Below, piece after piece: positions 443 to 14,129 of a DNA stretch of 64,000 bases. Every line of letters begins with the position of its first letter. The first letter of the stretch is position 1. The notes beneath the pieces are model-generated. The model did no database searches and was not told where the DNA came from. It worked only from the letters and a program-made list of their open reading frames with translations. The stretch is from Moritella viscosa. GTDB lineage: Bacteria > Pseudomonadota > Gammaproteobacteria > Enterobacterales > Moritellaceae. The stretch is from contig LN554852.1 in the NCBI GenBank assembly GCA_000953735.1, positions 2,925,846 to 2,989,845 on the forward strand, in the 5' to 3' direction. The position numbers and the translations under genes were made by a program.

Positions 443-1147
443 ATGATAAAACAACAATTACATATTGCCCTCGTTGAAGATGAAATCAATATCGCAGAAA
501 ATTATCGCGATGCATTACAACGCATTGGCTATCGGGTTTCACTTTTTCATAACCGCCAAGACACACTCGCAGCTTTTACCCTTGCGTTACCTGATATGGC
601 GATTATTGATGTAGGTTTACAAGATGAATACGAAGGCGGTTTTGACCTCTGTCGTACATTACGACAATTATCAGAGACACTTCCAATTATCTTTTTAACC
701 GCGCGTAGCAGCGAGTTAGATGAGATCTCAGCATTACGCCTTGGAGCTGATGATTATTTAACAAAAGACGTCAGTATTCATCAAGTATTGGCGCGCGTTT
801 CGGCGTTATTTCGTCGTATTCAAGCACTAAAAAAGCCACAATCCGCAGATGAACAAGTACTCAGTAGAGGTTCATTGCGCATTAACATTGAACGTATTGA
901 AACTTACTGGCAAGATCAGCCTGTGATACTCACTTTAACCGAATTTTGGATTGTGCACACACTTGCTAAGCACCCAGGTCAAGTTAAAAACCGAGACCAG
1001 CTCATGGATGCTGCACATGTGGTATTAGATAATAATACGATCACAACGCACATCAAACGAATACGTAAGAAATTTAGCCACATTGATAGCGAATTCAACG
1101 CCATAAAAACAGCTTACGGCATGGGTTATCGCTGGGTCATAGAGTGA
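443..1147 (+). CDS. pdsR: Response regulator of the proteobacterial dedicated sortase type (PdsR-like)
   Basis: A 234-residue OmpR-class regulator. The receiver domain spans about residues 6-120 with acidic pocket E12-D13, phospho-acceptor D56 (AIIDVGL), T86 and K108 (YLTKD). A C-terminal winged-helix domain contains TLTEFWIVHTLAKHPGQV and ends at GMGYRWVIE. The segment around D56-D104 (GGFDLCRTLRQLS, IIFLTARSSE, LRLGADDYLTKDVS) matches my memory of the family TIGR03787, regulators that accompany a variant sortase in marine proteobacteria. Its TGA overlaps the GTG start of the kinase by 4 bp (GTGA), so the two are translationally coupled. No sortase or LPXTG target gene is visible in the window. 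Confidence 0.8.
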   Translation: MIKQQLHIALVEDEINIAENYRDALQRIGYRVSLFHNRQDTLAAFTLALPDMAIIDVGLQDEYEGGFDLCRTLRQLSETLPIIFLTARSSELDEISALRLGADDYLTKDVSIHQVLARVSALFRRIQALKKPQSADEQVLSRGSLRINIERIETYWQDQPVILTLTEFWIVHTLAKHPGQVKNRDQLMDAAHVVLDNNTITTHIKRIRKKFSHIDSEFNAIKTAYGMGYRWVIE

Positions 1148-3207
1148 AAATTCACTTTAGTCTAAAAACCCAACTACTACTTGTGGCCAGCTTAATGCTA
1201 TTACTACCATGGGCGGGCTGCCAAAGTGTGAGCGTTTTAGAAACAAGTTTACGTCAAAGTCATAGTCAGTTACTTGATGTGCAAATGACCACTGCTGCAC
1301 AGCAAATAGAACGTAAGCTTAATCAATCACAATATCCCAGCCTTAATACCAACCAAGGCAACTATTACGCCCCGCTCACTGACAGTAAAATGTTATTAGA
1401 TGGGTTTGATGGTGAAGAAAGTGATTGGGAAAATATAACCACACCTTGGTTTCAACTTAATACCTATGATTACGTGGCTGGGCTATCAACAGAGGCTAAA
1501 CCATCCACAGCAGTTAAATTTAAATTAGCTGCAAATGATAAATTACTCTACATCTTAATTCAGACCTCTGCTCTAACACCGCATTATTTTAACCCTATGC
1601 AACCAAAAAAGATCGCAGATCAGCTCAATATTCGCAGTATCAATAATACCGGGCTTATTTCACGTTGGCAGATCAATCCGCAAGGCTCAGGCAGGGTAGA
1701 AATGCATAACATGAGCCAAACAATTAAAACAAGTCGAGATGCGGGTACCTGGTTATGGCGAGATGGTCATTATAATATTGAAATCGCAATACCTATTAAC
1801 TTAGCAAGCAATGCGATTGGGTTTGATCTCGTGCTTAATAACAAACAAAAAAATCAACACTTTAAATCGAAGCCAGCGACAACGTACGAGCGTAGCTTGG
1901 TTCGTGAAAAATCGGATTTAAATCAGCAACTCGCAAACTATATACAACCGGGTCTCAGTTTATATCTACTTAATAGTCAGTATTGGTTGGTTGGGCAAGT
2001 AAATGCAGAGCAAATAACAGGCGATAGTTTAGAAGATGACGATATCCAAGAAGAACCATCTTGGTTAACACACACCATCTACAACAAATTATTTACTTCA
2101 GGGTCATTACCTTATTGGCGAGAACCTACCAGCCTTGGCCGCTGGCGACGTCCGCAGCAATTAGAAAAAACAATCTGGTACCAAGACTCACCGATTAATA
2201 AACAACTGCACAGTAAAACCATTTATATCCATGGCCAACCTTTTTATTTTGTTGCAGTGCAAGATTCACGACAGAGTTTACTGTCAGCAAGCGTGGCGTT
2301 AAATCAGCTATTAACGCTACTTTTCACCATTATCGCCATCATTGTTTCTGGTTTATTTGCATTTGCATCCTCACTATCTTGGCGTATTGTTAAAATGAAA
2401 CAAAACTACCGCGATGCAATCGATTGTGACGGTAAGATAATGGCAGTGCCACAAGCAAGTAAACTGCCCGACGAACTCGGTGATTTATCTCGTGTCATGC
2501 AACAACTAACCATCAATCAAGGTAAATACACGAATTATCTCGCTTCGTTAGCAGACAAACTTTCTCATGAATTAAAAACACCCGTTGCTGTCATTCGAAC
2601 ATCACTCGAAAATCTGGAACTATCAAATTTAGATCCAGAAGCAACAAAATACCTCACACGCGCAATGCAAGGTACTAACCGTTTAAGCCAAACATTAAAT
2701 GCGCTAAGTGAAGCTAATAGGTTGGAGCAAAGCTTAGAATGTGCGCAATGGCAAATCGTCCCATTCGATGATATGTTAGAAGAATTAATCGAGGCTTATC
2801 GACAGATTTATAACCGTCATCAGTTTCAATTAAAGTATGATAATTACCTTGAGTATACTATCAATTTGGCACCAGAACTCATCGTACAATTACTTGATAA
2901 GCTCATCAGTAATGCCGTTGACTTCTCGCCAGAAAATGACGCCATTGTTTTTGTCCTAACCAAGCAAGATAAACAACTAAAATTAACGATTGAAAATCAA
3001 GGTCCACATTTTAGTAGCGATAATGTCTCGCTGTTATTTGATTCAATGGTCTCCATACGCCAACAATCTGAGACACCACACCTAGGCTTGGGTTTACATA
3101 TTGTTAAGTTAATCAGTGATTTCCACCTTGGTAACATAAATGCAAGAAACTTAGCCAGTGATAAAGGCGTTATATTTGAGCTATTATTACCTATAGAAAA
3201 CAAATAA
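1144..3207 (+). CDS. pdsS: Sensor histidine kinase of the dedicated sortase type (PdsS-like)
   Basis: A 687-residue membrane kinase with a GTG start overlapping the regulator. An N-terminal membrane segment (LLLVASLMLLLPWAG) is followed by a long periplasmic region containing LLDGFDGEESDW, a second membrane segment near residues 385-410, a HAMP-like linker, then the H-box LSHELKTPVAV with phospho-acceptor H475, an N-box (LISNAVDFS) and a degenerate G-box (HLGLGLHIVKL). The size, the long sensor region and the partner regulator fit TIGR03785-type kinases. It probably senses an envelope state and phosphorylates the adjacent regulator. The target genes are not shown by the sequence. Confidence 0.8.
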   Translation: MKIHFSLKTQLLLVASLMLLLPWAGCQSVSVLETSLRQSHSQLLDVQMTTAAQQIERKLNQSQYPSLNTNQGNYYAPLTDSKMLLDGFDGEESDWENITTPWFQLNTYDYVAGLSTEAKPSTAVKFKLAANDKLLYILIQTSALTPHYFNPMQPKKIADQLNIRSINNTGLISRWQINPQGSGRVEMHNMSQTIKTSRDAGTWLWRDGHYNIEIAIPINLASNAIGFDLVLNNKQKNQHFKSKPATTYERSLVREKSDLNQQLANYIQPGLSLYLLNSQYWLVGQVNAEQITGDSLEDDDIQEEPSWLTHTIYNKLFTSGSLPYWREPTSLGRWRRPQQLEKTIWYQDSPINKQLHSKTIYIHGQPFYFVAVQDSRQSLLSASVALNQLLTLLFTIIAIIVSGLFAFASSLSWRIVKMKQNYRDAIDCDGKIMAVPQASKLPDELGDLSRVMQQLTINQGKYTNYLASLADKLSHELKTPVAVIRTSLENLELSNLDPEATKYLTRAMQGTNRLSQTLNALSEANRLEQSLECAQWQIVPFDDMLEELIEAYRQIYNRHQFQLKYDNYLEYTINLAPELIVQLLDKLISNAVDFSPENDAIVFVLTKQDKQLKLTIENQGPHFSSDNVSLLFDSMVSIRQQSETPHLGLGLHIVKLISDFHLGNINARNLASDKGVIFELLLPIENK

Positions 3208-3231: not shown

Positions 3232-3897
3232 ATGTTAATACGGCCTATCGCAAAACGTAATGGCATAACAGTGACGATTATTGCAGTCTTGTTCATTTTC
3301 AGCAGTGTAGTTTCGTTGTTAACAACATCCGCAGACACAGATAATTACCTTTACTTCCCTCTGTCAGCTGGCGCACTTATTATTGGCATATGCTTGTTAA
3401 TTGTTGGGATCGTGAAAATTAATGACGTATATTACCGTTTCTCACTGACAAAAGAAGGGATTCATTACTTCACTTCACGAGGTGGTTTTACTATTCTCTG
3501 GCAAGATGTACAACGCATCGATATACCAAAGATAAATGATGGATTAGAGTTAAAAGAATTACCTTATATAGGTATCCGGCTCAAACAACGAGAGCACCTT
3601 ATCAATAGCGCCTCATTACCCACTTTATCTCACATGCTGTTAGAACAAAGGACACTTATCATGCTCACAGATCCCAGTGCAACACTCTACAGTAATGCCG
3701 ATAATATGCTTTACCCTGACATAAAAGTAACCCACAAATACCTCGGATTACAGGCCATGTTTATTAACCGAATGCAATTCCTCCACAATACGCTTGGTTA
3801 TGATATTTACTTCCCGAACGATGATCTCGACCGTGCACCAGCAGAATTTGTTCAACTATTACGCGAGTTTAAATCAGATTGTTCTAGATCATTATAA
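3232..3897 (+). CDS. DUF2982-family membrane protein
   Basis: A 221-residue protein preceded by a strong GAGGAGG ribosome-binding site. Two N-terminal membrane segments (about residues 12-32 and 40-60) form a hairpin, followed by a soluble PH-like beta-rich region with an LWQDVQRIDIPKI motif typical of bacterial PH-like membrane proteins. I assign it to DUF2982 from the overall pattern; its function is unknown. It lies 24 bp after the kinase gene on the same strand, so it is probably co-transcribed with the two-component pair. Confidence 0.6.
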   Translation: MLIRPIAKRNGITVTIIAVLFIFSSVVSLLTTSADTDNYLYFPLSAGALIIGICLLIVGIVKINDVYYRFSLTKEGIHYFTSRGGFTILWQDVQRIDIPKINDGLELKELPYIGIRLKQREHLINSASLPTLSHMLLEQRTLIMLTDPSATLYSNADNMLYPDIKVTHKYLGLQAMFINRMQFLHNTLGYDIYFPNDDLDRAPAEFVQLLREFKSDCSRSL

Positions 3898-3915
3898 ATA
3901 GTAATAATTATCAAT
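3897..3915 (+). promoter_or_regulatory. Fur-box-like site before the FTR1/cytochrome cluster
   Basis: The 19-mer AATAGTAATAATTATCAAT agrees with the classical Fur box at about 12-13 of 19 positions by eye. It lies about 88 bp upstream of the first gene of a cluster encoding an iron permease. The surrounding DNA is AT-rich, so some of this match is expected by chance. Confidence 0.4.
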
Positions 3916-4002
3916 TAGAGTTGCAATTAACATATTTATATGGATAATACGAACTATTCTCATTAAGACATAGTCTATTATAAAAAATAAAAAGGATTTG
4001 CT

Positions 4003-6024
4003 GTGAAAAAATCTGCTCTCTGCTTTGCTATCTCTTCTGCGTTACTGTCTGCTGCATTTACTGCACAAGCTGCAAGCGTAAAAGTTCTTGATAAAACACT
4101 TTCTCCTGCTGCAAACTTTCTTGCGTATACAGAATTTGAATTATCAGGTGAACCTCTTGCTGAATCACTAGGCTTAGACCTCGATGTTTTAGATCCTAAC
4201 CAAGTTGATCAACCGACTGCATTCGATTACGCAGCGGGTATTGAAAGCTACGAGTATTCTGAAGAAGCTATGTATGCGTTAAACTACCAATCAACTATGG
4301 GTCCTCACCTAGTTAATGGTCCGATTAACCAAGCACGCGGTGGTTCTCTTGCTGACTTAGGTAAACGCTTCATCTCACTTGCTGGCGCAGTAGGCTTCCC
4401 AAGTGAAGAAATCCCACTAAACATGTATCCAATCTCGGTACCATACGTTTCAGGTAGCCCTGAATTTGCTGGTAAAGTAGATACAACAAAAGTTAATGGC
4501 GAAGAATTAGAAGTATTATCTGCAACAGGTAAAGCCGCGGTACATAACACTGTAATTCCAGCTTACTTCCGTGACTACAAAACGTTAGCATGGGACAACG
4601 CAAGTTTTGATAAAGCCTTAAACCCAGGCGCAATCGGTAGCATCTTCCTTAAAGAAGTAATGTGGTCACAAGATTTCCTAGGTGGCATGCACGTTACAAC
4701 GACAGATGAAGAAGTTGAAGCAACATCAAGAACAATGGATCAAGACGGTAAACACAGTCTTGGTGTATCTGCTGCCGATGGTTTCAACGGCATGATCTTA
4801 ACTGAAATGTCAATAGACAAACTACTTATCCTTCAACAGCAACTTGGCTTTGACGGTAAGAACCTAGGTGTTAAATTCGGTCCTGACTACGATGCATCTA
4901 AAAACCCAATTTGGTTTGCACACAAAGTAGCAGTCAAAGAAACACAAAAGAACAACGTAAATAACATCGGTAAATTAGCTGTTACAGATGGTTCATCATC
5001 ACTACGTGATACTTGGATGTTATTATGGCCTGTAAGTGAATTCTATGCATTTACTGACCAACGCACAGCGAATACTGCACAGAACCCAGCATTTAAAGCT
5101 GTATTTGATGGCAAGCCATTTGCTGCAGCACCGAAACAAAATATCGATGGGAAAACAAACAACAATGTAGTTGCTGACGATGCATTCTCTCTTGCAAGCA
5201 ACATTGCTAACCTATCGTTCCAAAACTTAGCAAATTTACACTTCAACAAAAAAGCTGGTACGTTTGTAACGAAATACGACGGCAAGCAAAATGCACAAGT
5301 TGAAACATTTGACGCTGCATACAGCATCGTAGCACTATCTATTTACCAACGTTCACAAGATGCACTACCTGTTGGTTATGCAGCTGCAGACGGCGGTGAT
5401 GTTGATTTAGCAACACCTCAAGGTAAACAAGCGCTTGGTTTAATCAAAGCACAAGCAGATTACATCGTTAATACATTAGTCGCTAAAAACGGTCTAGTAT
5501 ACGATGGTGCTACAGTTGGTAAATCAGTAGATAAAAACCAATCACTTGATGCACAATTCGCTGCAATCCGAGGTTTAGTTTCTGCTTACTTAGCAACACA
5601 AGATAACACTTACAAGCAAGCAGCACGTTCTATCTTCCTAGCTGTAGAGAAAAACATGTTTGATGCAGAGCTTGGTACATGGGCACAAACACCAGGTAAA
5701 GCAACAATTCACACACCGTTAACGGCTGCGGCAATCTCGGGTGGTTTACGTGAAACTATACTTCACCTTGCCAATGAAGAAGGCGAGCATGTTCCAGCAC
5801 TAGAACTACAACACTTAACAGAGCGCTACACAGCTTGGTTCAAGAAAGTAGTTAACGGTGGTCAACAATTATCAGAATGGGTTGGTGATTCAGGTGAAAA
5901 CTTACTGAAAAACAGTTCAACTACCGATTCAGATAATGATGGCGTACAACAAGTAACAGCTGCTGGCGGTAAATACGGTACAGCACAAACTATGGCAGCA
6001 AAAGTGTCGGTTAGTGCAAACTAG
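4003..6024 (+). CDS. Large secreted protein of unknown family at the head of the FTR1 cluster
   Basis: A 673-residue protein with a GTG start 8 nt after AAAAGG. A clear Sec signal peptide (MKKSALCFAISSALLSAAF, cleavage after TAQAA) sends it to the periplasm or beyond. The mature part has no CXXCH haem motif, no lipobox and no transmembrane segment. The C-terminal half (about residues 400-620) is helical with repeated aromatic/Ala helices and could be an alpha/alpha-barrel. I do not recognise the family. A strong terminator follows it, so it is probably made in excess over the downstream membrane genes. Its position before a b-type-like membrane protein and FTR1 suggests a periplasmic iron-handling role; this is inference only. 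Confidence 0.55.
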   Translation: MKKSALCFAISSALLSAAFTAQAASVKVLDKTLSPAANFLAYTEFELSGEPLAESLGLDLDVLDPNQVDQPTAFDYAAGIESYEYSEEAMYALNYQSTMGPHLVNGPINQARGGSLADLGKRFISLAGAVGFPSEEIPLNMYPISVPYVSGSPEFAGKVDTTKVNGEELEVLSATGKAAVHNTVIPAYFRDYKTLAWDNASFDKALNPGAIGSIFLKEVMWSQDFLGGMHVTTTDEEVEATSRTMDQDGKHSLGVSAADGFNGMILTEMSIDKLLILQQQLGFDGKNLGVKFGPDYDASKNPIWFAHKVAVKETQKNNVNNIGKLAVTDGSSSLRDTWMLLWPVSEFYAFTDQRTANTAQNPAFKAVFDGKPFAAAPKQNIDGKTNNNVVADDAFSLASNIANLSFQNLANLHFNKKAGTFVTKYDGKQNAQVETFDAAYSIVALSIYQRSQDALPVGYAAADGGDVDLATPQGKQALGLIKAQADYIVNTLVAKNGLVYDGATVGKSVDKNQSLDAQFAAIRGLVSAYLATQDNTYKQAARSIFLAVEKNMFDAELGTWAQTPGKATIHTPLTAAAISGGLRETILHLANEEGEHVPALELQHLTERYTAWFKKVVNGGQQLSEWVGDSGENLLKNSSTTDSDNDGVQQVTAAGGKYGTAQTMAAKVSVSAN

Positions 6025-6119
6025 TCTCACTCTTTTGGCAATGAAAAGCCATCTCGCAGCACACTTGTTAATTAACATGTATTGATTAATGAAAGTGTTG
6101 CGAAACTAAGATAAAAGTT

Positions 6120-6155
6120 GCAAAAAGGGATGAGAATTAACTCAGCCCTTTTTGC
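6120..6155 (+). terminator. Strong hairpin terminator inside the FTR1 cluster
   Basis: GCAAAAAGGG pairs with CCCTTTTTGC, with an inner TGAG/CTCA extension and a T-rich 3' arm. It lies between the secreted 673-residue protein and the 4-TM gene, so the downstream genes either have their own promoter or depend on read-through. Confidence 0.75.
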
Positions 6156-6189
6156 GTTTTCATTACGTCGATATGAATAAGGTTTTATC

Positions 6190-6672
6190 ATGTCAGTTCA
6201 AATAGCAACCCCAACCGGTGATAACATCTGGTCACGTTTACAGTCTCATTTTAAACGTTTCGCTTTTCATCATAAGAAAGCCGAAGCGATATTATATTTG
6301 ATGTTCCTATCAGGACTTTTACTGTGGCCATTTATCACTATTCCATGGCAAGTAGAACGTACCGTACTACTCATGCATATGCTTGCAGGTATCAGTATCT
6401 TCCCTGTTTTTGTTGGTAGTTTCTGGCTGTCTCACCGAAATCTTATTCAAAACAGTAAAAAGAAATTCTTACGTCAAACCGGTACCATTATCGAATATTT
6501 ACTCATTGTTTGTACTCTTACCGGCGTCTACCTTACTTTTTGGGGTAACACGGGTAATAACTTCAGTATACTCATGCAAGATATCCACTTTTACAGCTCA
6601 TGGCTGCTTGCCCCGCTTGTTCTTCGCCACGCTTGGCGCTGGACTGTAATCAAATTCTTTAGGAAGTCTTAA
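6190..6672 (+). CDS. Four-helix membrane protein with paired histidines, probable b-type cytochrome
   Basis: A 160-residue integral membrane protein with four hydrophobic helices (about residues 33-52, 62-84, 98-118, 130-150). Histidines lie at helix ends and inside helices: LLMHMLAG in helix 2, LSHRN just after it, QDIHFYSSW, and LRHAWRW in helix 4. This resembles cytochrome b561-type haem ligation, but no family assignment is certain. It ends 1 bp before the FTR1 start codon region, so the two are tightly coupled. An electron-transfer role next to an iron permease is an inference. Confidence 0.55.
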   Translation: MSVQIATPTGDNIWSRLQSHFKRFAFHHKKAEAILYLMFLSGLLLWPFITIPWQVERTVLLMHMLAGISIFPVFVGSFWLSHRNLIQNSKKKFLRQTGTIIEYLLIVCTLTGVYLTFWGNTGNNFSILMQDIHFYSSWLLAPLVLRHAWRWTVIKFFRKS

Positions 6673-6673
6673 T

Positions 6674-7510
6674 ATGTTTGCCAGTTTTTTAATCACTTTT
6701 CGTGAAGGACTTGAAGCCTTCCTACTCGTTGGCATTATACTTTCTTACTTAGCAAAGCTTGGCCAATCAAAGCACAACAAACTTATCTATCTAGGTGTTG
6801 CACTTGGTTTAATTGCCTCATTAATTGTCGCTTTCATTTTCCAGTTCGTTGTCGACCAGTTCGATTCACATGAATACCGCAATTTATTAATGGCGGGTAT
6901 TTTAGGCTTTGCGACCTTGGTACTCACCTACATGGCCATTTGGATGCAACGCCAAGCCAAAACCCAAGTCTCTAACATGCAAGAAAACATTCGCGAGATC
7001 TTAACCACAGGCAATGTATTTGGTTTAATATTTTTAGCTTTCCTTGCGGTAATGCGTGAAGGCTTTGAAACCGTCCTATTTTTCTCGGCGTTAATGTATT
7101 CAGGTCAAGGCAATTTCTCACTACAAGATGGATTAATCGGTGCTAGTGTGGGCTTAATTGCTTCTCTGGTATTGGTTGTCGTTCTGATGCGCGGTACCCG
7201 TAAAGTACCACTGCAGGCATTCTTTAAATGGACAAGCCTATTAATCATCATTATTGCCGCAGGTCTATTGTCTTCAGCATGCAATATGCTACAAAGCGCC
7301 GATGTATTACCGGTATTCCAGACCGCCGTATTTGATATTAGCCATATCCTTGATGATCAAGGCGTATTTGGTACTTTCCTACGTGCTTTATTTGGTTATA
7401 ATTCATCACCTAATCTATTACCATTGATTATCTGGGGCATATATTTAGCTGTATTTACCGTGTTCTGGCATCGTGGTTATCAAACACCAACAAAAGCAGC
7501 TGCTGCATAA
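6674..7510 (+). CDS. FTR1-family iron permease
   Basis: A 278-residue protein with seven predicted membrane helices and both REXXE iron-binding motifs of the family: REGLE at residues 10-14 and REGFE at about 128-132. FTR1/EfeU permeases move iron across the inner membrane, normally coupled to oxidation of Fe(II) by a partner. No multicopper oxidase, EfeO/EfeB or P19 gene lies beside it. The neighbours are instead a histidine-rich membrane protein and, further down, a hexahaem cytochrome. It is directly abutted by the 4-TM gene. Confidence 0.9.
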   Translation: MFASFLITFREGLEAFLLVGIILSYLAKLGQSKHNKLIYLGVALGLIASLIVAFIFQFVVDQFDSHEYRNLLMAGILGFATLVLTYMAIWMQRQAKTQVSNMQENIREILTTGNVFGLIFLAFLAVMREGFETVLFFSALMYSGQGNFSLQDGLIGASVGLIASLVLVVVLMRGTRKVPLQAFFKWTSLLIIIIAAGLLSSACNMLQSADVLPVFQTAVFDISHILDDQGVFGTFLRALFGYNSSPNLLPLIIWGIYLAVFTVFWHRGYQTPTKAAAA

Positions 7511-7532
7511 TTCAAAACAATAAAATGAGTGG

Positions 7533-7561
7533 CGAACATAAATACAATATCTTTATGTTCG
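7533..7561 (+). other. Intergenic stem-loop
   Basis: CGAACATAAA and TTTATGTTCG form a perfect 10-bp stem with a 9-nt loop between the FTR1 gene and the FAD oxidoreductase. There is no T tract, so it is more likely a processing or stabilising hairpin than a terminator. Confidence 0.5.
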
Positions 7562-7601
7562 TCATGTAAGAATAAAAAGCATATTAATCATTGAGTAAAT
7601 A

Positions 7602-9044
7602 ATGTCGAAAGAAATTGTAATTTTAGGTGCTGGTCCAGCCGGACTAATGGCCGCATGGGAATTTAATCAAGCTGGTTACAAAGTGACTATCCTAGAACGT
7701 GAAGAGTTTGTTGGTGGCATGTGCGCAACGCAAACCTTCCAAGGTGAAAAAGGTGAATACCGTTTTGACTACGGTGGCCATCGCTTTATTACTAAAAATC
7801 CGAAACTATTACAGTTTATCGATGACTTAATGACTGATGATCTACTGTATGCAGAGCGTACCAGTGTGATCCGTTTTAAAGGCCGTACCTACAACTACCC
7901 GCTTGCAATTGGTAACTTATTACGTAACGCACCGCTCAGTTTATTAGCCGGTGCGGCTGTAGACTTAGTATTTAAATTACCTTTCCAAAAGCGCCCAAGT
8001 GAACAAAGCACCAGTAACTTTGCTGAATGGATTGAAACTCGTTTCGGTACCACCTTATACAAAAATTTCTTTGAAGGTTATACCGGTAAGCTATGGGGCA
8101 TCGACCCACGTCAATTATCTGCTGATTGGGCATCGCAACGTATTAGCTTGCTCGATTTAAAAGATGTGGCACGACGTTTAATCCCAACGCGTGGCGCAAC
8201 ACCGCGTACTTACGCAAAAAAATATCGTTATCCTAAACTCGGCTTTGGTCAAATGTACACCAAACTTGCAGAAAGACTGCAAGAACAAGGTGTCGATATT
8301 ATTCAAGGCGCTAATATCACTGCTTTGAATCAAGGTAATAATTGTATTGATGCAGTTACATATGAACTTAACGGTGAGACACACTCAATTAACTGTGATC
8401 ACGTTGTCGGAACTATTCCTTTACCTGTGGTTTGTACTTTAACAGGATTTGATTCTGGCCTAACTTATCGCGCGCTACGCTTTTTCAACATGCCGATGGC
8501 CACAGAAAACGTATCACAAAATACCTGGCAGTATCTGTCTGACCCAGAGTTAATTGGTACGCGTTTGCAAGAACCTCGTCGCCGTTCACCATTTATGGCT
8601 CCCAAAGGACAAACATCAGTAATGATCGAGATCCCTTGTAACAAAGGTGACGATGTTTGGAACATGGACAACAACACGCTATTAAAACGTGTAAAACAAG
8701 ATCTTAACCACCTAGATGTACCAGATGTAAGTACGGGTGAATTCTTTACCACTTACACCGAGTACGCTTACCCTATGATGGATGTAAGTTATAATGCCAA
8801 ACGTGAAGCTGCAATTAAGCACCTTCACCAATTTGATAATTTAGTTATGACTGGTCGCCAAGGTACTTTCCGTTACATCTTTACTGATACTGCTATGGAA
8901 ATGGGCTTAATGGCGGCTGAAGGCATCATTAAAGGTGAAGATAATCGTCGCCAGATCTTCGATCACCGTAACGAAAAAACAGTGATTGAAGTACAAAGCA
9001 TTATGGATGATAAAAAAATATCAGAGGAAAAAAATGTCGCTTAA
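7602..9044 (+). CDS. FAD/NAD(P)-dependent oxidoreductase, UDP-galactopyranose-mutase/protoporphyrinogen-oxidase-like
   Basis: A 480-residue protein with an N-terminal dinucleotide-binding fold (VILGAGPAGLMAAWEF, then VTILEREEFVGGMC) and the DYGGHRF motif that follows the FAD-binding loop in the NAD-binding_8/amine-oxidase clan. The central GKLWGIDP and C-terminal VMTGRQGTFRYIFTDTAM segments are typical of the subgroup found in sugar and polyprenyl-glycan loci. The substrate is unknown. There is no signal peptide, so it is cytoplasmic. Its stop codon overlaps the start of the next gene, showing translational coupling. With the GT-C-like gene downstream it hints at glycan modification of an envelope component. 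Confidence 0.7.
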   Translation: MSKEIVILGAGPAGLMAAWEFNQAGYKVTILEREEFVGGMCATQTFQGEKGEYRFDYGGHRFITKNPKLLQFIDDLMTDDLLYAERTSVIRFKGRTYNYPLAIGNLLRNAPLSLLAGAAVDLVFKLPFQKRPSEQSTSNFAEWIETRFGTTLYKNFFEGYTGKLWGIDPRQLSADWASQRISLLDLKDVARRLIPTRGATPRTYAKKYRYPKLGFGQMYTKLAERLQEQGVDIIQGANITALNQGNNCIDAVTYELNGETHSINCDHVVGTIPLPVVCTLTGFDSGLTYRALRFFNMPMATENVSQNTWQYLSDPELIGTRLQEPRRRSPFMAPKGQTSVMIEIPCNKGDDVWNMDNNTLLKRVKQDLNHLDVPDVSTGEFFTTYTEYAYPMMDVSYNAKREAAIKHLHQFDNLVMTGRQGTFRYIFTDTAMEMGLMAAEGIIKGEDNRRQIFDHRNEKTVIEVQSIMDDKKISEEKNVA

Positions 9045-9642
9045 ATTTATTAATCAAATTACTGTGAAATCATTTATCTTAAGCTTTTTTGTATTGTTAT
9101 TCAGTGCGCAAAGCTTCGCTTATTCTTATGCAGCGGCAGGTAAAGAGCCATTAATTGAAGGTCGAGAAGCCTTGTTAAAAGCGTTATCGGCAAATGATTA
9201 TGCTGCGGTACAAACTGCCTATGATTCAATGCAGAAAGAATTCGTTTATTTCAACGAACACCATGGACTAGCTGTCGATGAGCAAATGCAAACAGCAATC
9301 ACCAACAAAGATCAGCAAGGTGTAGCTATAGCATTAATTACCACGATCAAAGCAGAAGTCATGCGCCGTCTCGACGGTGCAGAACAAAACATTAATGACT
9401 ATCAAGTAGCTAAAGTGTTAGTGGTAAAAAGTAAATTGTTTATTGATTTACTGGCTGCCGATTTAACCGCTGATAATCGTCAAAAGGCCGATATTGCCAT
9501 TCGCGGTGCCCTTGCATCAATTGGTAACCCAGGAGTATTTGGTGTGGGTCAAAAACCAGCAGATGTAACGCGTTACATCGAATATCGCTCTAATTTACAA
9601 GCAGCATTACAATTTACATTACCTGATGCACCAGAAAAATAA
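9034..9642 (+). CDS. Small secreted alpha-helical protein
   Basis: About 202 residues from the ATG at 9034, chosen because GAGG lies just upstream and a membrane-inserting signal peptide follows (VKSFILSFFVLLFSAQSFA, cleaved near residue 32). The mature protein is mostly helical and carries EHH and several conserved-looking acidic residues. The spacing (a short helix-rich domain with a YFNEHH segment) recalls the periplasmic N-terminal domain found fused to some FTR1 proteins, here as a separate gene. That relation is a guess. It overlaps the gene before by 11 bp and the gene after by 17 bp. Confidence 0.5.
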   Translation: MSLKFINQITVKSFILSFFVLLFSAQSFAYSYAAAGKEPLIEGREALLKALSANDYAAVQTAYDSMQKEFVYFNEHHGLAVDEQMQTAITNKDQQGVAIALITTIKAEVMRRLDGAEQNINDYQVAKVLVVKSKLFIDLLAADLTADNRQKADIAIRGALASIGNPGVFGVGQKPADVTRYIEYRSNLQAALQFTLPDAPEK

Positions 9643-11101
9643 TAAACCTTGGTGCGCTGATTTAGCCGTCTGTATTAGCTCAATAGCCTGCATTGCAGGC
9701 TATTTTTGTATGCTCAGCTATTATAGTTTTGATATTAGCAGTGATGATGCGCTTTATTTTCAGCGTGCGTTAAGCCATTTTTCAGTATTAGAATTTAGCC
9801 CTCACTTTCCCGGTTATCCTGGCTTTGTTTGGTTAGAACGCATTATCAGCGCAATAAGTTCACATCCCAACAGTAATGTATTACTCAGTTTCCTTTCTGC
9901 AATAGCGTTAACCTTTAGTGTTTTTATGTATTGCTATCAACGTATGCGAATAAAGTCATTTGCATTATTCGCAGTACTGTTTTTTTTACTGCAAGGCAAC
10001 ATTTCAGAATTAGCCTTAAACGGTTTATCAGATGCTTCCGCCCTGTGGTTTTTTAGCTTATATTTATTATTAACCCGCTTTCATCTACCGCTAGGTGCTA
10101 CCCCTTTATTAAAGACTAAATTACATCGTGTATTACAGTCTCTTTTCCAAATACAAACATTCACCGCGATTATTAGCGGGTTATTATTAGCGGCATGTTT
10201 AGCAACTCGACCGTCTTATTTACCCTTAGTCGCCAGCGCACTCCTGCTAGCTCTCTTTTACAATAATCAGGAGTACTCAAACTATAAGCAACTCGGTTGG
10301 CAGATATTAAGCATTACCCTGATAGGCATCATTTGTGCGCTTTACGTGTTCATGCAAGACGGTTGGGCGTATATTGAGGAAGGACAGCGATTCACCCAAG
10401 GTCATTTTACGATTTGGGGTAATACCACCAGTACAACAGATTCGCGGTTGAGTCAGTGGCTAACGACATTAACCAATACCTACTCCACTCTCGGGGTAAT
10501 ATTATTAACCTCGATACTAACCATTGGTTTATATCTACCAAAAACCCGTGGATTAAGTATTCTCGTGTGCAGTTGGTTTGCCTGGATCATCCGAGGCCAG
10601 AATCCAGAGAATATCCGTCACTTAGCTGTTTTTAGCTTATTACTACCAATTATCTGCGCGCAACTCTTGGAACACGTTTACCAAACTCAACGTATTCGAC
10701 CTGCTCTATATATATTAAGTATTATCTTGCTCGTGACACTGGGTTATCACAGTATCAAACAATTCACCCAACAAAAAAATGCCCCTGTATTTCAAGCAAT
10801 ACAGTTCTTTAACACAATAAATAATCAGCAAATCATCATCAGCAATTATAATATTGATAATTTACGACATAACTTGTCACAACATGTAATTTTAGACCGT
10901 CATTATCAAAGCAGTAGCAATTACCAAGCACAACAGCAAGGCTACTGGCGACTAAGCAGTAATAAACTAGATATTGATAAACGAAGTACTGATAAACCCG
11001 TTAACGGCGATTTAGTGGCATTGTTTAGAGGCCGCTTTCTTGGCGAACAAAGTTTACACCTATATTATTTTGATCTAAATCATTTAAACCCGCGATCATA
11101 G
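9626..11101 (+). CDS. Polytopic membrane protein, GT-C/ArnT-like glycosyltransferase fold
   Basis: A 491-residue protein with about ten membrane helices. The first periplasmic loop contains DISSDDALYFQRALSHFS followed by HFPGYPGFVWLERI, matching the acidic first-loop pattern of GT-C enzymes that use polyprenyl-phosphate sugars. A soluble C-terminal domain begins near residue 400. The start overlaps the preceding gene by 17 bp. It could glycosylate a protein or lipid of this cluster; the acceptor cannot be told from sequence. Confidence 0.55.
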   Translation: MHQKNNKPWCADLAVCISSIACIAGYFCMLSYYSFDISSDDALYFQRALSHFSVLEFSPHFPGYPGFVWLERIISAISSHPNSNVLLSFLSAIALTFSVFMYCYQRMRIKSFALFAVLFFLLQGNISELALNGLSDASALWFFSLYLLLTRFHLPLGATPLLKTKLHRVLQSLFQIQTFTAIISGLLLAACLATRPSYLPLVASALLLALFYNNQEYSNYKQLGWQILSITLIGIICALYVFMQDGWAYIEEGQRFTQGHFTIWGNTTSTTDSRLSQWLTTLTNTYSTLGVILLTSILTIGLYLPKTRGLSILVCSWFAWIIRGQNPENIRHLAVFSLLLPIICAQLLEHVYQTQRIRPALYILSIILLVTLGYHSIKQFTQQKNAPVFQAIQFFNTINNQQIIISNYNIDNLRHNLSQHVILDRHYQSSSNYQAQQQGYWRLSSNKLDIDKRSTDKPVNGDLVALFRGRFLGEQSLHLYYFDLNHLNPRS

Positions 11102-11132
11102 CTACAAATATTGCACTATGATTTCAACGCGA

Positions 11133-11151
11133 TATAATGATAACGATTCTT
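11133..11151 (+). promoter_or_regulatory. Fur-box-like site before the hexahaem cytochrome gene
   Basis: TATAATGATAACGATTCTT matches the 19-bp Fur consensus at about 14 positions by eye. It lies 41 bp before the ATG at 11193. The core AATGATAACGATTC is identical to that in the site before the TonB receptor at 43261. Confidence 0.6.
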
Positions 11152-11192
11152 AATAGTAATATCATTTTCCCCCACCAAGATGCCGTAGATTT

Positions 11193-14129
11193 ATGAATAT
11201 AAATATTTTCCCTAAACTAATGTTCGCCTTGTTACTATTAACAAGCCAATCACTTTATGCCAGCAGTATTTATTCAAATACGAAAAGTAACAGTTTATTA
11301 CTATCTGTAGATGGTACGCAGTTTATTAGTGCAAACATGGATGCCGGTAGCGTCAGTATTCTTAACGCTAAAACAGGTGAATTGATTACAGAACAAGCGC
11401 TTGGTAAAGATTTACGTCGACTTGCATTAGATCCAATAAATAATCAATTATTGGTCAGTGACTATCTTGCTGATCAACTTTACCTCATTGACGCTAAAAG
11501 CCTGAAATTAATTAAAACAATCAAAACAGGCTATCGCCCGTTTGGTATTGTTTATGATGAATATAACAAGCAATACTACGTCACACTCTTTGAAGCTAAA
11601 CAGCTAATAACCGTTTCAACTGATGGTGAAATAACCGCAACAACACAAACTGCTGATACACCACGTGGTCTTGCATTAGCTAACGATGGTCGTTTGTTTG
11701 TGACCCATAGCATGACTGGCCAAGTATCTATTTATGATACTCGACAGCCAACATTGCAATTAAATAAGATCATTCAACTTGCTGATACACCAGTACATTC
11801 CTCTCGTGCAACGCCACAAGGTAAACCGCGCGTATTAGATAACATTGCTATTTCCCCAGATGGCACACAAGCTTGGCTACCCCATGTATTGTGGTCGTTT
11901 ACGCAAAACTTCCAGTTTCAATCAACCGTCTTCCCAACAATTTCGTTACTTGATCTAACACCAGGTAAAGAAAAAGAACTAGTTGATAAACGTAAACAAT
12001 TATTCAAACAAATAAACATTATTGAGAACAACAATACCACGCGTATTGTGTCTAACCCACATGACGTGGCCTTCCGTGAAGACGGAAAAAAAGTATTTAT
12101 TACCCTGTCGGGTTCAGAAGACCTGCTTGTGTTTGATTTATCTCGTCAAGGAAAAATAGGTAAGAAATCTAAACGTCATCGCCGTACTAAATTACAAGGT
12201 GGTGTGAAAGCGACACAAATTTATCGTCATATACCAGGTACAAATCCGCGCAGTTTAATTGCCAAAGGTAGCACTCTGTACGTGCAAAACGCCATGTCGC
12301 ACGATTTAGTGAGCTTTGATATTAGCGGTCAAGGTCCTTTCGCCAAAGTAAAACTGGTTAATGCCCAATTTGCCCAGTTAATTGGCCAAGATCCCATTGC
12401 ACCAGAACTTCGTTTGGGTAAAACCCTCTTTAATCTTGCAAATAGTGATAAATTTGAAAATAGCGCTATGGCAGGTGATTATTGGATGAGCTGTAACTCT
12501 TGTCATGTTGACGGCTTTAACTTCACTAACAAATACTTATTAGCCGACGGTACCAAAGACGTTAAAGAAAATGCCATGACTGGACATGTAGGTTTAGCAA
12601 CCATGATCGCAGGTGACCCTATTGAAGCCTATATCGATATGATTCAAAAAACCCAAGGAGGTATGGGAACCGACCCGAAAAAACCAGAACTACCAAAAGT
12701 TAATCCTAAATCACCACCTGTAGAGATCGTACGCTTAATGTCAGCATTGAATATGTACGTGACGACGAAAGAAAATTTACCTTACTTATCAACTTGGTTA
12801 CGCTTTGATGACGAACGTAAATTCACCCACAAATCTGAATGGTTAAATTCAGCAAGTTGTGAATCTTGCCATAGTACCCTCTATAAGCAGTGGTCAGACT
12901 CGAACCATGGTATGCACATGGATAGTCCCTATTACCGTTTCCAAGAAAACCTAGCAGCAAAAGCAGAAGGTGAACCATTTAGAAACTTATGCCGTGGTTG
13001 TCATGCCCCACAAACCATTTTAAATAATAATACAGCGCCATTAACTCACCTTAATAGCATGTATGAAAAAGAGGGGCAGAGCCTACGTGATGCACTAAGA
13101 GAAGGCCTACCCGTTGATGAAACTGGCACCAGTTGTGTTTTCTGTCATCGAATCACCAAAGCGGAAGACGCTGGCGGTAATACTGACCTTACAGTTAACT
13201 TAAAAGATCGTGCTAAGTACCTGTTTGAGTTCTCTAACAACCCAGTGCTAAAATTCGCTGCTGAAGCACAGATAAATGCATCACCACAACAGCATAAAGA
13301 CAGCTATTCAAACCCAGAACTGTACAAGAGCTCATTATATTGTGCAACCTGCCATAATGAATTCACCCCCGGCCAAGGTGCTAATGTGAATAACAATTAT
13401 GGCGAATGGCAAGCATCTAGATTTAACGCACCGGACAACCCTGAGCAGAACAAAACATGTATCGATTGTCACATGCGCTTAGATATGACTGATTTTGATA
13501 ACAAGGTACCTGGACAAGCCACAGATAATGGTCCAATTAAGCCCAACTTGATTGCACATAACTTTATTGGTGGTAACTATTACTTCTCTGATATGCGCTC
13601 TAAAGAGCATGGAAAACTCAGTCGTGATATCTTGCGTAACGCCCTACTACTCGACGTTGAAACCAGCAAAGATGGCCGTAATATTGAAGTCAAAGTAACA
13701 AACCATAATACCGGCCATAAAATGCCAGGCGGTGCGCGTCGTCAGGTATGGGTTGATCTCGTAGTAACGGATAGTAAAGGCGTGGAACGTTTGGTTAGCG
13801 GTCAGTTAAACGATGGCTTCTTACCAAAAGATAGCCGTGTGTTTGCTAAAAAATCCGGTTACATGCATGGCGAACCCGTTGGCCTTAAGTTTTGGCGCGT
13901 TGAGAAAATTCTAGCAGATACCCGTATTTCTCCAGATGAAACACGTGTTGAATCATTTGAACTGCCTGAAGATATCAGCTATCCAATCACAGTCATCGCA
14001 AAAATTAATTATCGCTCCTTCTCGAAGCCGCTAACAAGTAAGGTACAAGCAGCTTTCCCTGAGCAGAATATTCCTTTTGCCGATGTGATTGAATTAAATA
14101 AAGTCACCAAGGTATTCCAAGAGAGATAA
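11193..14129 (+). CDS. Secreted beta-propeller multihaem c-type cytochrome (six CXXCH)
   Basis: A 978-residue protein with a Sec signal peptide (LMFALLLLTSQSLYA). Residues about 25-390 contain YVTN-type beta-propeller repeats (SVSILNAKTGELI, GYRPFGIVYDEYNKQYYVT, PRGLALANDGRLFVT). Six haem-c motifs follow: CNSCH (~433), CESCH (~556), CRGCH (~600), CVFCH (~648), CATCH (~717) and CIDCH (~756). The first sits in a MauG/di-haem-peroxidase-like stretch (APELRLGKTLFN), and the other five in a cytochrome c554-like block. A beta-sandwich-like C-terminal region includes NHNTGHKMPGGARR. The natural substrate is unknown. A Fur-like box and the linkage to FTR1 suggest iron oxidation/reduction or an iron-limitation redox role. 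Confidence 0.75.
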   Translation: MNINIFPKLMFALLLLTSQSLYASSIYSNTKSNSLLLSVDGTQFISANMDAGSVSILNAKTGELITEQALGKDLRRLALDPINNQLLVSDYLADQLYLIDAKSLKLIKTIKTGYRPFGIVYDEYNKQYYVTLFEAKQLITVSTDGEITATTQTADTPRGLALANDGRLFVTHSMTGQVSIYDTRQPTLQLNKIIQLADTPVHSSRATPQGKPRVLDNIAISPDGTQAWLPHVLWSFTQNFQFQSTVFPTISLLDLTPGKEKELVDKRKQLFKQINIIENNNTTRIVSNPHDVAFREDGKKVFITLSGSEDLLVFDLSRQGKIGKKSKRHRRTKLQGGVKATQIYRHIPGTNPRSLIAKGSTLYVQNAMSHDLVSFDISGQGPFAKVKLVNAQFAQLIGQDPIAPELRLGKTLFNLANSDKFENSAMAGDYWMSCNSCHVDGFNFTNKYLLADGTKDVKENAMTGHVGLATMIAGDPIEAYIDMIQKTQGGMGTDPKKPELPKVNPKSPPVEIVRLMSALNMYVTTKENLPYLSTWLRFDDERKFTHKSEWLNSASCESCHSTLYKQWSDSNHGMHMDSPYYRFQENLAAKAEGEPFRNLCRGCHAPQTILNNNTAPLTHLNSMYEKEGQSLRDALREGLPVDETGTSCVFCHRITKAEDAGGNTDLTVNLKDRAKYLFEFSNNPVLKFAAEAQINASPQQHKDSYSNPELYKSSLYCATCHNEFTPGQGANVNNNYGEWQASRFNAPDNPEQNKTCIDCHMRLDMTDFDNKVPGQATDNGPIKPNLIAHNFIGGNYYFSDMRSKEHGKLSRDILRNALLLDVETSKDGRNIEVKVTNHNTGHKMPGGARRQVWVDLVVTDSKGVERLVSGQLNDGFLPKDSRVFAKKSGYMHGEPVGLKFWRVEKILADTRISPDETRVESFELPEDISYPITVIAKINYRSFSKPLTSKVQAAFPEQNIPFADVIELNKVTKVFQER

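Follow-up and report, generated by a model that had tools for sequence, protein, structure and literature searches.

We analysed a stretch of 64,000 nucleotides from Moritella viscosa (contig LN554852.1, positions 2,925,846 to 2,989,845; hereafter the window), in which seven genes at positions 4003..14129 encode envelope proteins that may constitute a haem-based redox system linked to iron. We refer to these genes by the short names S673 (673-residue secreted protein), TM4 (four-helix membrane protein), FTR1, FADox, S202, GTC, and cytc (hexahaem cytochrome). The genes and the noncoding elements associated with them are as follows.

4003..6024, + strand: S673, GTG start; secreted protein with a predicted (alpha/alpha)6 toroid fold; core gene.
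6190..6672, + strand: TM4, four-helix membrane protein with four invariant histidines, probable di-haem b cytochrome; core gene.
6674..7510, + strand: FTR1, FTR1/EfeU-type iron permease with two REXXE motifs; accessory gene.
7602..9044, + strand: FADox, flavin adenine dinucleotide (FAD) oxidoreductase of the PRK07208 group; accessory gene.
9034..9642, + strand: S202, small secreted helical protein without a family.
9626..11101, + strand: GTC, polytopic GT-C-like membrane protein; accessory gene.
11193..14129, + strand: cytc, secreted protein with a beta-propeller N-terminal half and six c-type haem sites; core gene.
3897..3915, + strand: Fur-box-like site 1, 5' of S673, matching 13 of the 16 defined positions of AATGANAATNATTNTCATT.
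3946..3964, + strand: Fur-box-like site 2, 5' of S673, matching 13 of the 16 defined positions.
11136..11154, + strand: Fur-box-like site 5' of cytc, matching 13 of 16 positions and kept in four other Moritella loci.
6119..6156, + strand: terminator-like hairpin between S673 and TM4, with a fold z of -5.3.

FADox overlaps S202 by 11 bp, S202 overlaps GTC by 17 bp, and 1 bp separates TM4 from FTR1. Among the seven products, matches above a Pfam or NCBIfam cut-off were obtained for FTR1, FADox, and parts of cytc; those of S673, TM4, S202, and GTC stay below every cut-off of the two databases and are weak at most. A preliminary description of the window had reported seven co-directional genes with these overlaps, an FTR1 permease with both REXXE motifs, a cytochrome with six CXXCH motifs, and a 673-residue protein of no known family, and all of this was borne out. 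The seven open reading frames lie on the + strand; FTR1 matches PF03239 with 157.1 bits (cut-off, 25.3), and all 12 sequences aligned retain its two motifs (at residues 10-14 and 128-132); none of the six CXXCH motifs varies among the 20 aligned cytc sequences; and S673 has no Pfam family at E 0.1, its best NCBIfam score being 13.7 bits against a cut-off of 800. The three Fur-box-like sites and the hairpin are additions to that description.

We followed the genes in an order sample (295 genomes of 99 genera), a class sample (274 genomes), and a phylum sample (398 genomes); besides, two conserved peptide patterns located 65 loci, 27 in Aeromonas and 38 in other bacteria, in a collection of species genomes. 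The alignments comprised 37 S673, 27 TM4, 20 cytc, 19 S202, 16 GTC, 14 FADox, and 12 (of 22) FTR1 sequences, leaving out frames with a stop from the chosen start (FADox of loci L047, L053, and L059, S202 of L087, and cytc of L093). S673 was found in 25 of the 295 order genomes, belonging to 4 of the 99 genera, and TM4 in 26, namely, all 25 with S673 plus genome G189, which holds a fragment. Cytc was present in the eight S673-positive order genomes tried (of 25), six of which were Aeromonas. At the 38 non-Aeromonas loci, S673 was accompanied by TM4 in 37 cases and by cytc in 36. The contig of L050 stops after TM4, the Arcobacter metagenome-assembled genome (MAG) L092 has a TM4 copy, and in L065 TM4 and cytc lie approximately 8.4 kb from S673. 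S673 stands apart in Aeromonas, and TM4-cytc-FTR1-FADox-S202-GTC is found elsewhere in all nine genomes examined (12 with S673 in the sample), one of these nine operons being broken by a contig end inside GTC. Gene order is variable: cytc comes immediately after TM4 in most lineages and last in Moritella, Vibrionaceae, and Ferrimonas. We saw no neighbour beyond the seven genes that recurred across most genera. The genes recur together in other bacterial families and classes, which is not chance, and the cohesion in other genomes on which the preliminary description had staked its proposal is supported. Since the phylum sample gave a full S673 match in the window's own genome alone, besides two partial matches of 89-90 positions, the system is patchy. 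It is apparently a conserved set of envelope proteins of marine and freshwater bacteria that is switched on by iron shortage, and we recognised no published description of this gene set in the literature searched, which omits most subscription journals. The TM4 fragment of G189 (L133; Aeromonas genus code), a 71-codon frame in a genome without S673 and with no other cluster gene within 19.9 kb, is a possible relic.

The permease of the cluster scores 209.2 bits against the EfeU equivalog NF041756 (cut-off, 255) and 187.5 bits against TIGR00145 (cut-off, 303.8), falling short of both. FTR1 is present at 21 of the 38 non-Aeromonas loci, every time with FADox, S202, and GTC, and these three genes occur without it at L053, L057, L058, L059, and L093. 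In the order sample, FTR1 was found in 98 of 295 genomes, that is, in 24 of the 25 S673-positive genomes and in 74 without S673. Seventeen genomes have S673 and no FTR1 at the locus; 14 of the 16 searched (L077 was left out) contain no PF03239 protein anywhere, and the remaining two, the Arcobacter MAG and Motiliproteus coralliicola, have FTR1 elsewhere in the genome. Genomes without FTR1 at the locus that are isolates, judging by their titles, include Pseudoalteromonas denitrificans, Cognaticolwellia mytili, Motiliproteus MSK22-1 (where TM4 and cytc are missing at the locus), Amphritea balenae, and Saccharospirillum salsuginis. A quick tree built from 40 S673 proteins shows no fewer than four switches between presence and absence of FTR1; for six of its Aeromonas rows, presence was assigned on the basis of sister genomes, and three rows carried no label. 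FTR1 is a frequent but optional companion, and S673-TM4-cytc is the unit. The preliminary description had suggested a haem-based FTR1 system; the haem-based, iron-linked envelope redox part of this idea is backed by regulation and context, whereas the dependence on FTR1 is given up in view of the genomes that lack it altogether.

The histidines H63, H82, H133, and H147 of TM4 are invariant in all 27 aligned sequences and fall within two helices of the predicted model (53-87 and 124-151), in line with the earlier impression of histidines positioned like b-haem ligands. With these putative ligands, TM4 is a probable di-haem b cytochrome, and the closest known proteins are the FdnI / HyaC-type di-haem cytochrome b subunits. 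Cytc matches PF14522 and PF13435 above cut-off and bears an export signal as judged by eye. The two proteins are fused in one frame in L071, L087, L092, and L088, which form one clade on the S673 tree; in L093, the TM4 frame extends into the cytc region, and the cytc frame carries a stop. A similar fusion in Aeromonas, hinted at by open frames of 1128 and 1197, was not confirmed by a strict check of nine loci. As for single lineages, cytc is divided into two frames with 2 and 3 CXXCH motifs in L033/L052 (Kangiellaceae MAG), and a DUF4920 gene and a PepSY_TM-like gene lie 3' of cytc in Cognaticolwellia (L056:15736-16775); PepSY_TM proteins are sometimes tied to ferric-siderophore reduction.

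The combination of an FTR1/EfeU-type permease and a haem-containing periplasmic partner resembles EfeUOB, of which EfeB is the haem peroxidase according to a published account (PMC9174327). Unlike EfeUOB, however, EfeO/M75 (PF09375) was found in none of six FTR1-positive genomes tried, including the window's, the core also occurs without FTR1, and the haem partner would be a six-haem c-type beta-propeller protein together with a b-type membrane partner. A second similar system is P19-FTR1 of Campylobacter (CJJ81176_1649-1656), described as a conserved operon (PMC6083913); the shared features are the Fur box, the FTR1 permease, and additional membrane and redox proteins. It differs in that P19 (PF10634) is absent from the window's genome (it was present in two of seven genomes tried) and that the seven genes include no ABC or thioredoxin genes. 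Moreover, the P19 gene of two S673-positive genomes, G103 (L145) and G036 (G036:C1:2874994-2876550), adjoins a second, larger FTR1 of approximately 630-650 residues, not the FTR1 of the cluster. Cytochrome c-FTR1 fusions likewise link a c-type haem motif to FTR1, as in a 666-residue FTR1 frame of the same order (L148), which has one CXXCH in its N-terminal part ahead of the REXXE region, whereas the FTR1 of the cluster is bare and the haems reside on a separate six-haem protein. We also considered S202 as a detached extracytoplasmic domain of FTR1 and rejected this, as a profile comparison with the extra domains of large FTR1 proteins gave a probability of 1%. Thus, the earlier remark that no EfeOB, P19, or multicopper oxidase partner is encoded holds for EfeO/M75 and P19 in the window's genome; for multicopper oxidases, it holds among the seven genes, the rest of the genome not having been searched. 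A DyP-like frame of 302 residues lies approximately 2.6 Mb from the window in the same genome, and none is among the seven genes.

Iron-dependent regulation was assessed with AATGANAATNATTNTCATT, which we take to be the Fur consensus, in the 250 bases 5' of S673 in the window and the 65 loci (66 sequences), using a threshold of 13 of the 16 defined positions. A site at or above the threshold is present in 57 of the 66 sequences (24 of 27 from Aeromonas, which are close kin, and 33 of the 39 others), and in 62 of the 66 the score was attained by at most 5 of 100 shuffles. Fur-type sites lie 5' of S673 also where FTR1 is missing. Such sites precede 29 of 35 S673 frames versus 7 of the 262 further frames at these loci, a contrast that is descriptive, as the rows are related. 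The counterpart of site 2 in Moritella PE36 (L041) has a score of 13 at -57, and the separate TM4 operon of Aeromonas has a 5' site of 13-14 in nine of nine cases. Across the entire window, six sites reach 13 or more (2-3 in shuffles), two of them 5' of S673 and one 5' of cytc; the latter recurs at all four other Moritella loci and is absent from the loci of other genera. The region before TM4 scores 13 in 7 of 37 sequences. Besides, our own scan detected a terminator-like hairpin 3' of S673 at 26 of 36 loci versus 2.7 expected (Aeromonas, 13 of 27 versus 1.2); the ten loci without it are mostly more distant lineages, and the hairpin of the window was absent from the output of a ready-made terminator scan. 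This hairpin probably causes S673 to be produced in larger amounts than the membrane proteins. These sites also bear on another explanation, a haem or metal stress function, such as clearing the periplasm of Fe(II), in which FTR1 would be a passenger. The dispensability of FTR1 and its repeated changes of state would suit it, whereas a Fur box usually marks genes that iron represses and, 5' of S673, has the wrong sense for iron detoxification. We regard this explanation as very improbable.

S673 has a Sec-type signal, as assessed by eye, and is predicted to fold into an (alpha/alpha)6 toroid, an architecture used by many sugar-active enzymes. The model resembles the toroids of a sugar epimerase (AGE), GH105, and GH76; unlike these, S673 belongs to no Pfam family, and with 7-14% identity and approximately half of the chain aligned the likeness is one of predicted fold. 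The preliminary description had named identification of S673 as a known unrelated enzyme as an outcome fatal to its proposal; no such identity emerged, while the fold leaves room for another role. An uncharacterised protein of the Aeromonas iron-starvation proteome, K1J5J8, listed with 72.17 kDa (PMC4957856), was considered as a possible S673 and rejected, as the 27 Aeromonas S673 precursors have masses of 70.3 to 71.1 kDa.

The accessory proteins can be placed only broadly. FADox matches NF005547 (PRK07208 group) with 589.9 bits (cut-off, 380); its nearest solved relatives are UDP-galactopyranose mutases, which are distant, and it scores 66 bits against their NCBIfam equivalog (cut-off, 303.75). 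S202, which matches UGSC weakly (15 bits), is accompanied by FADox and GTC in 26 of the 26 non-Aeromonas loci that have it. Among the 274 class genomes, it was found in the window's own, besides one weak match in G661 that, read from its sequence, appears to be chance, the frame looking adenylate-cyclase-like. GTC gives weak GT87, PMT_2, and Glyco_transf_22 matches in a few relatives and none in the window's copy. FADox-S202-GTC is perhaps a glycan-related helper module, and this module together with the toroid fold hints at a glycan. It is thus conceivable that S673 is a periplasmic sugar or polysaccharide enzyme whose product is oxidised or reduced by TM4-cytc, with FADox and GTC supplying or remodelling the glycan and FTR1 feeding iron for haem. 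We consider this unlikely. Two further features of the window are mentioned for completeness. A 10-bp inverted repeat with a short T-rich tail lies at 9682-9704, within the start of GTC. Directly 5' of S673, positions 443-3207 encode a response regulator and a histidine kinase of the "proteobacterial dedicated sortase" (pds) type, TIGR03787 being above its own cut-off and TIGR03785 below; we rejected this pair as part of the system, since it was matched beside S673 in Moritella loci only and not in non-Moritella loci.

Putatively iron-related genes lie near the core in several lineages. At the FTR1-less locus L052, genes of an ATP-binding cassette (ABC) importer stand beside the core on the opposite strand, and the binding protein matches FbpA (1q35, E 8.6e-119). 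At L084, also FTR1-less, an ABC set lies downstream past a hydrolase gene, with a binding protein that matches an "Iron transport protein" (2pt1, E 4.5e-109); the same ABC families occur at L086, a near relative of L084. In 14 of 27 Aeromonas loci, genes for a chorismate-binding protein and an adenosine monophosphate (AMP)-ligase lie divergently, approximately 1 kb from S673 (two other Aeromonas loci have less than 2 kb of sequence on that side); we infer that these are catechol siderophore genes.

Gene content, cohesion, the conservation of the putative haem ligands, and the Fur-type sites are direct observations; taken together with the predicted folds, they suggest a scheme in which haem content, topology, electron path, substrate, and direction are inferred. 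In iron shortage, S673 would be produced, probably in excess, and exported. TM4, as a b-type cytochrome that sits in the membrane and holds two bis-His haems, would carry electrons between the quinone pool and cytc, and the periplasmic six-haem cytc would exchange them with iron or an iron chelate on S673. Where present, FTR1 would then move the iron across the membrane; elsewhere, a ferric ABC importer or another route would do so. We slightly favour oxidation of Fe(II) to Fe(III), with electrons passing to quinone, because FTR1 couples transport to Fe(II) oxidation and because importer genes of the ferric type are found close to the core in two lineages that lack FTR1. To this reading, in which a haem relay under Fur control joins the quinone pool to the periplasmic iron on S673, with oxidation as the preferred direction, we assign a probability of roughly 0.4. 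That iron is the substrate of the relay, both directions taken together, is likely.

The main rival has the electrons run the opposite way: TM4 would oxidise quinol, cytc would reduce ferric chelates or siderophores on S673, and Fe(II) would enter via FTR1, Feo, or another carrier. Di-haem b and multihaem c proteins together usually form a quinol dehydrogenase, and Fur-type control suits oxic iron shortage, in which iron is ferric. S673 lies beside siderophore-type genes in the Aeromonas loci mentioned above, and the work on P19-FTR1 proposes a step of iron reduction ahead of FTR1 (PMC6083913). On the other hand, reduced iron would not be needed by the ABC importers of ferric type that lie close to the core in lineages lacking FTR1, and we hold this direction to be somewhat unlikely, though it is the closest competitor.

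Several points count against the relay reading or the steps that lead to it. As for regulation, nine of the 66 sequences remain under 13 of 16, the window's own sites reach 13 at best, and the control frames of the Fur contrast include spurious and coding-region frames; an earlier scan with the 19-mer GATAATGATAATCATTATC gave a weaker contrast, in which the window promoter was matched by 27 of 100 shuffles and was not above chance. In the fold search with TM4, haem-b cytochromes ranked high, yet not above unrelated helical bundles. L058 has S673 without TM4 and cytc at the locus, the FTR1-less set includes several MAGs, and contigs stop soon after the core in L050, L085, and L092. The ABC proteins of L052, L084, and L086 do not reach NCBIfam cut-offs, their nearest models having other substrates, often aminoethylphosphonate. 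The siderophore-type neighbours in Aeromonas may represent an insertion beside a constant gene, because the other flank is constant. The predicted fold of S673, along with the sugar-like FADox and GTC, makes a glycan substrate possible. Finally, approximately eight haem irons per complex would be a cost in an iron-short cell.

Weighing these points, we regard a haem-based, iron-linked envelope redox system as the best hypothesis and the FTR1-centred reading as too narrow. More tentatively, the genes may define an undescribed class of iron acquisition, in which a Fur-controlled di-haem b/hexahaem c relay and a toroidal protein for iron or ferric chelates change the redox state of periplasmic iron and feed interchangeable importers (FTR1 or ferric ABC), replacing EfeO/EfeB, P19, or a copper oxidase; we find this possible and still doubtful. 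If the relay reading is true, iron uptake would be joined to the quinone pool via a haem wire, and the bare FTR1 would have a partner in genomes that, among those tried, have no EfeO or P19 of its own. The most telling point would be the paradox that cells short of iron apparently spend so many haem irons on each complex. Besides, four protein families below all Pfam and NCBIfam cut-offs would gain a concrete hypothesis for their function.
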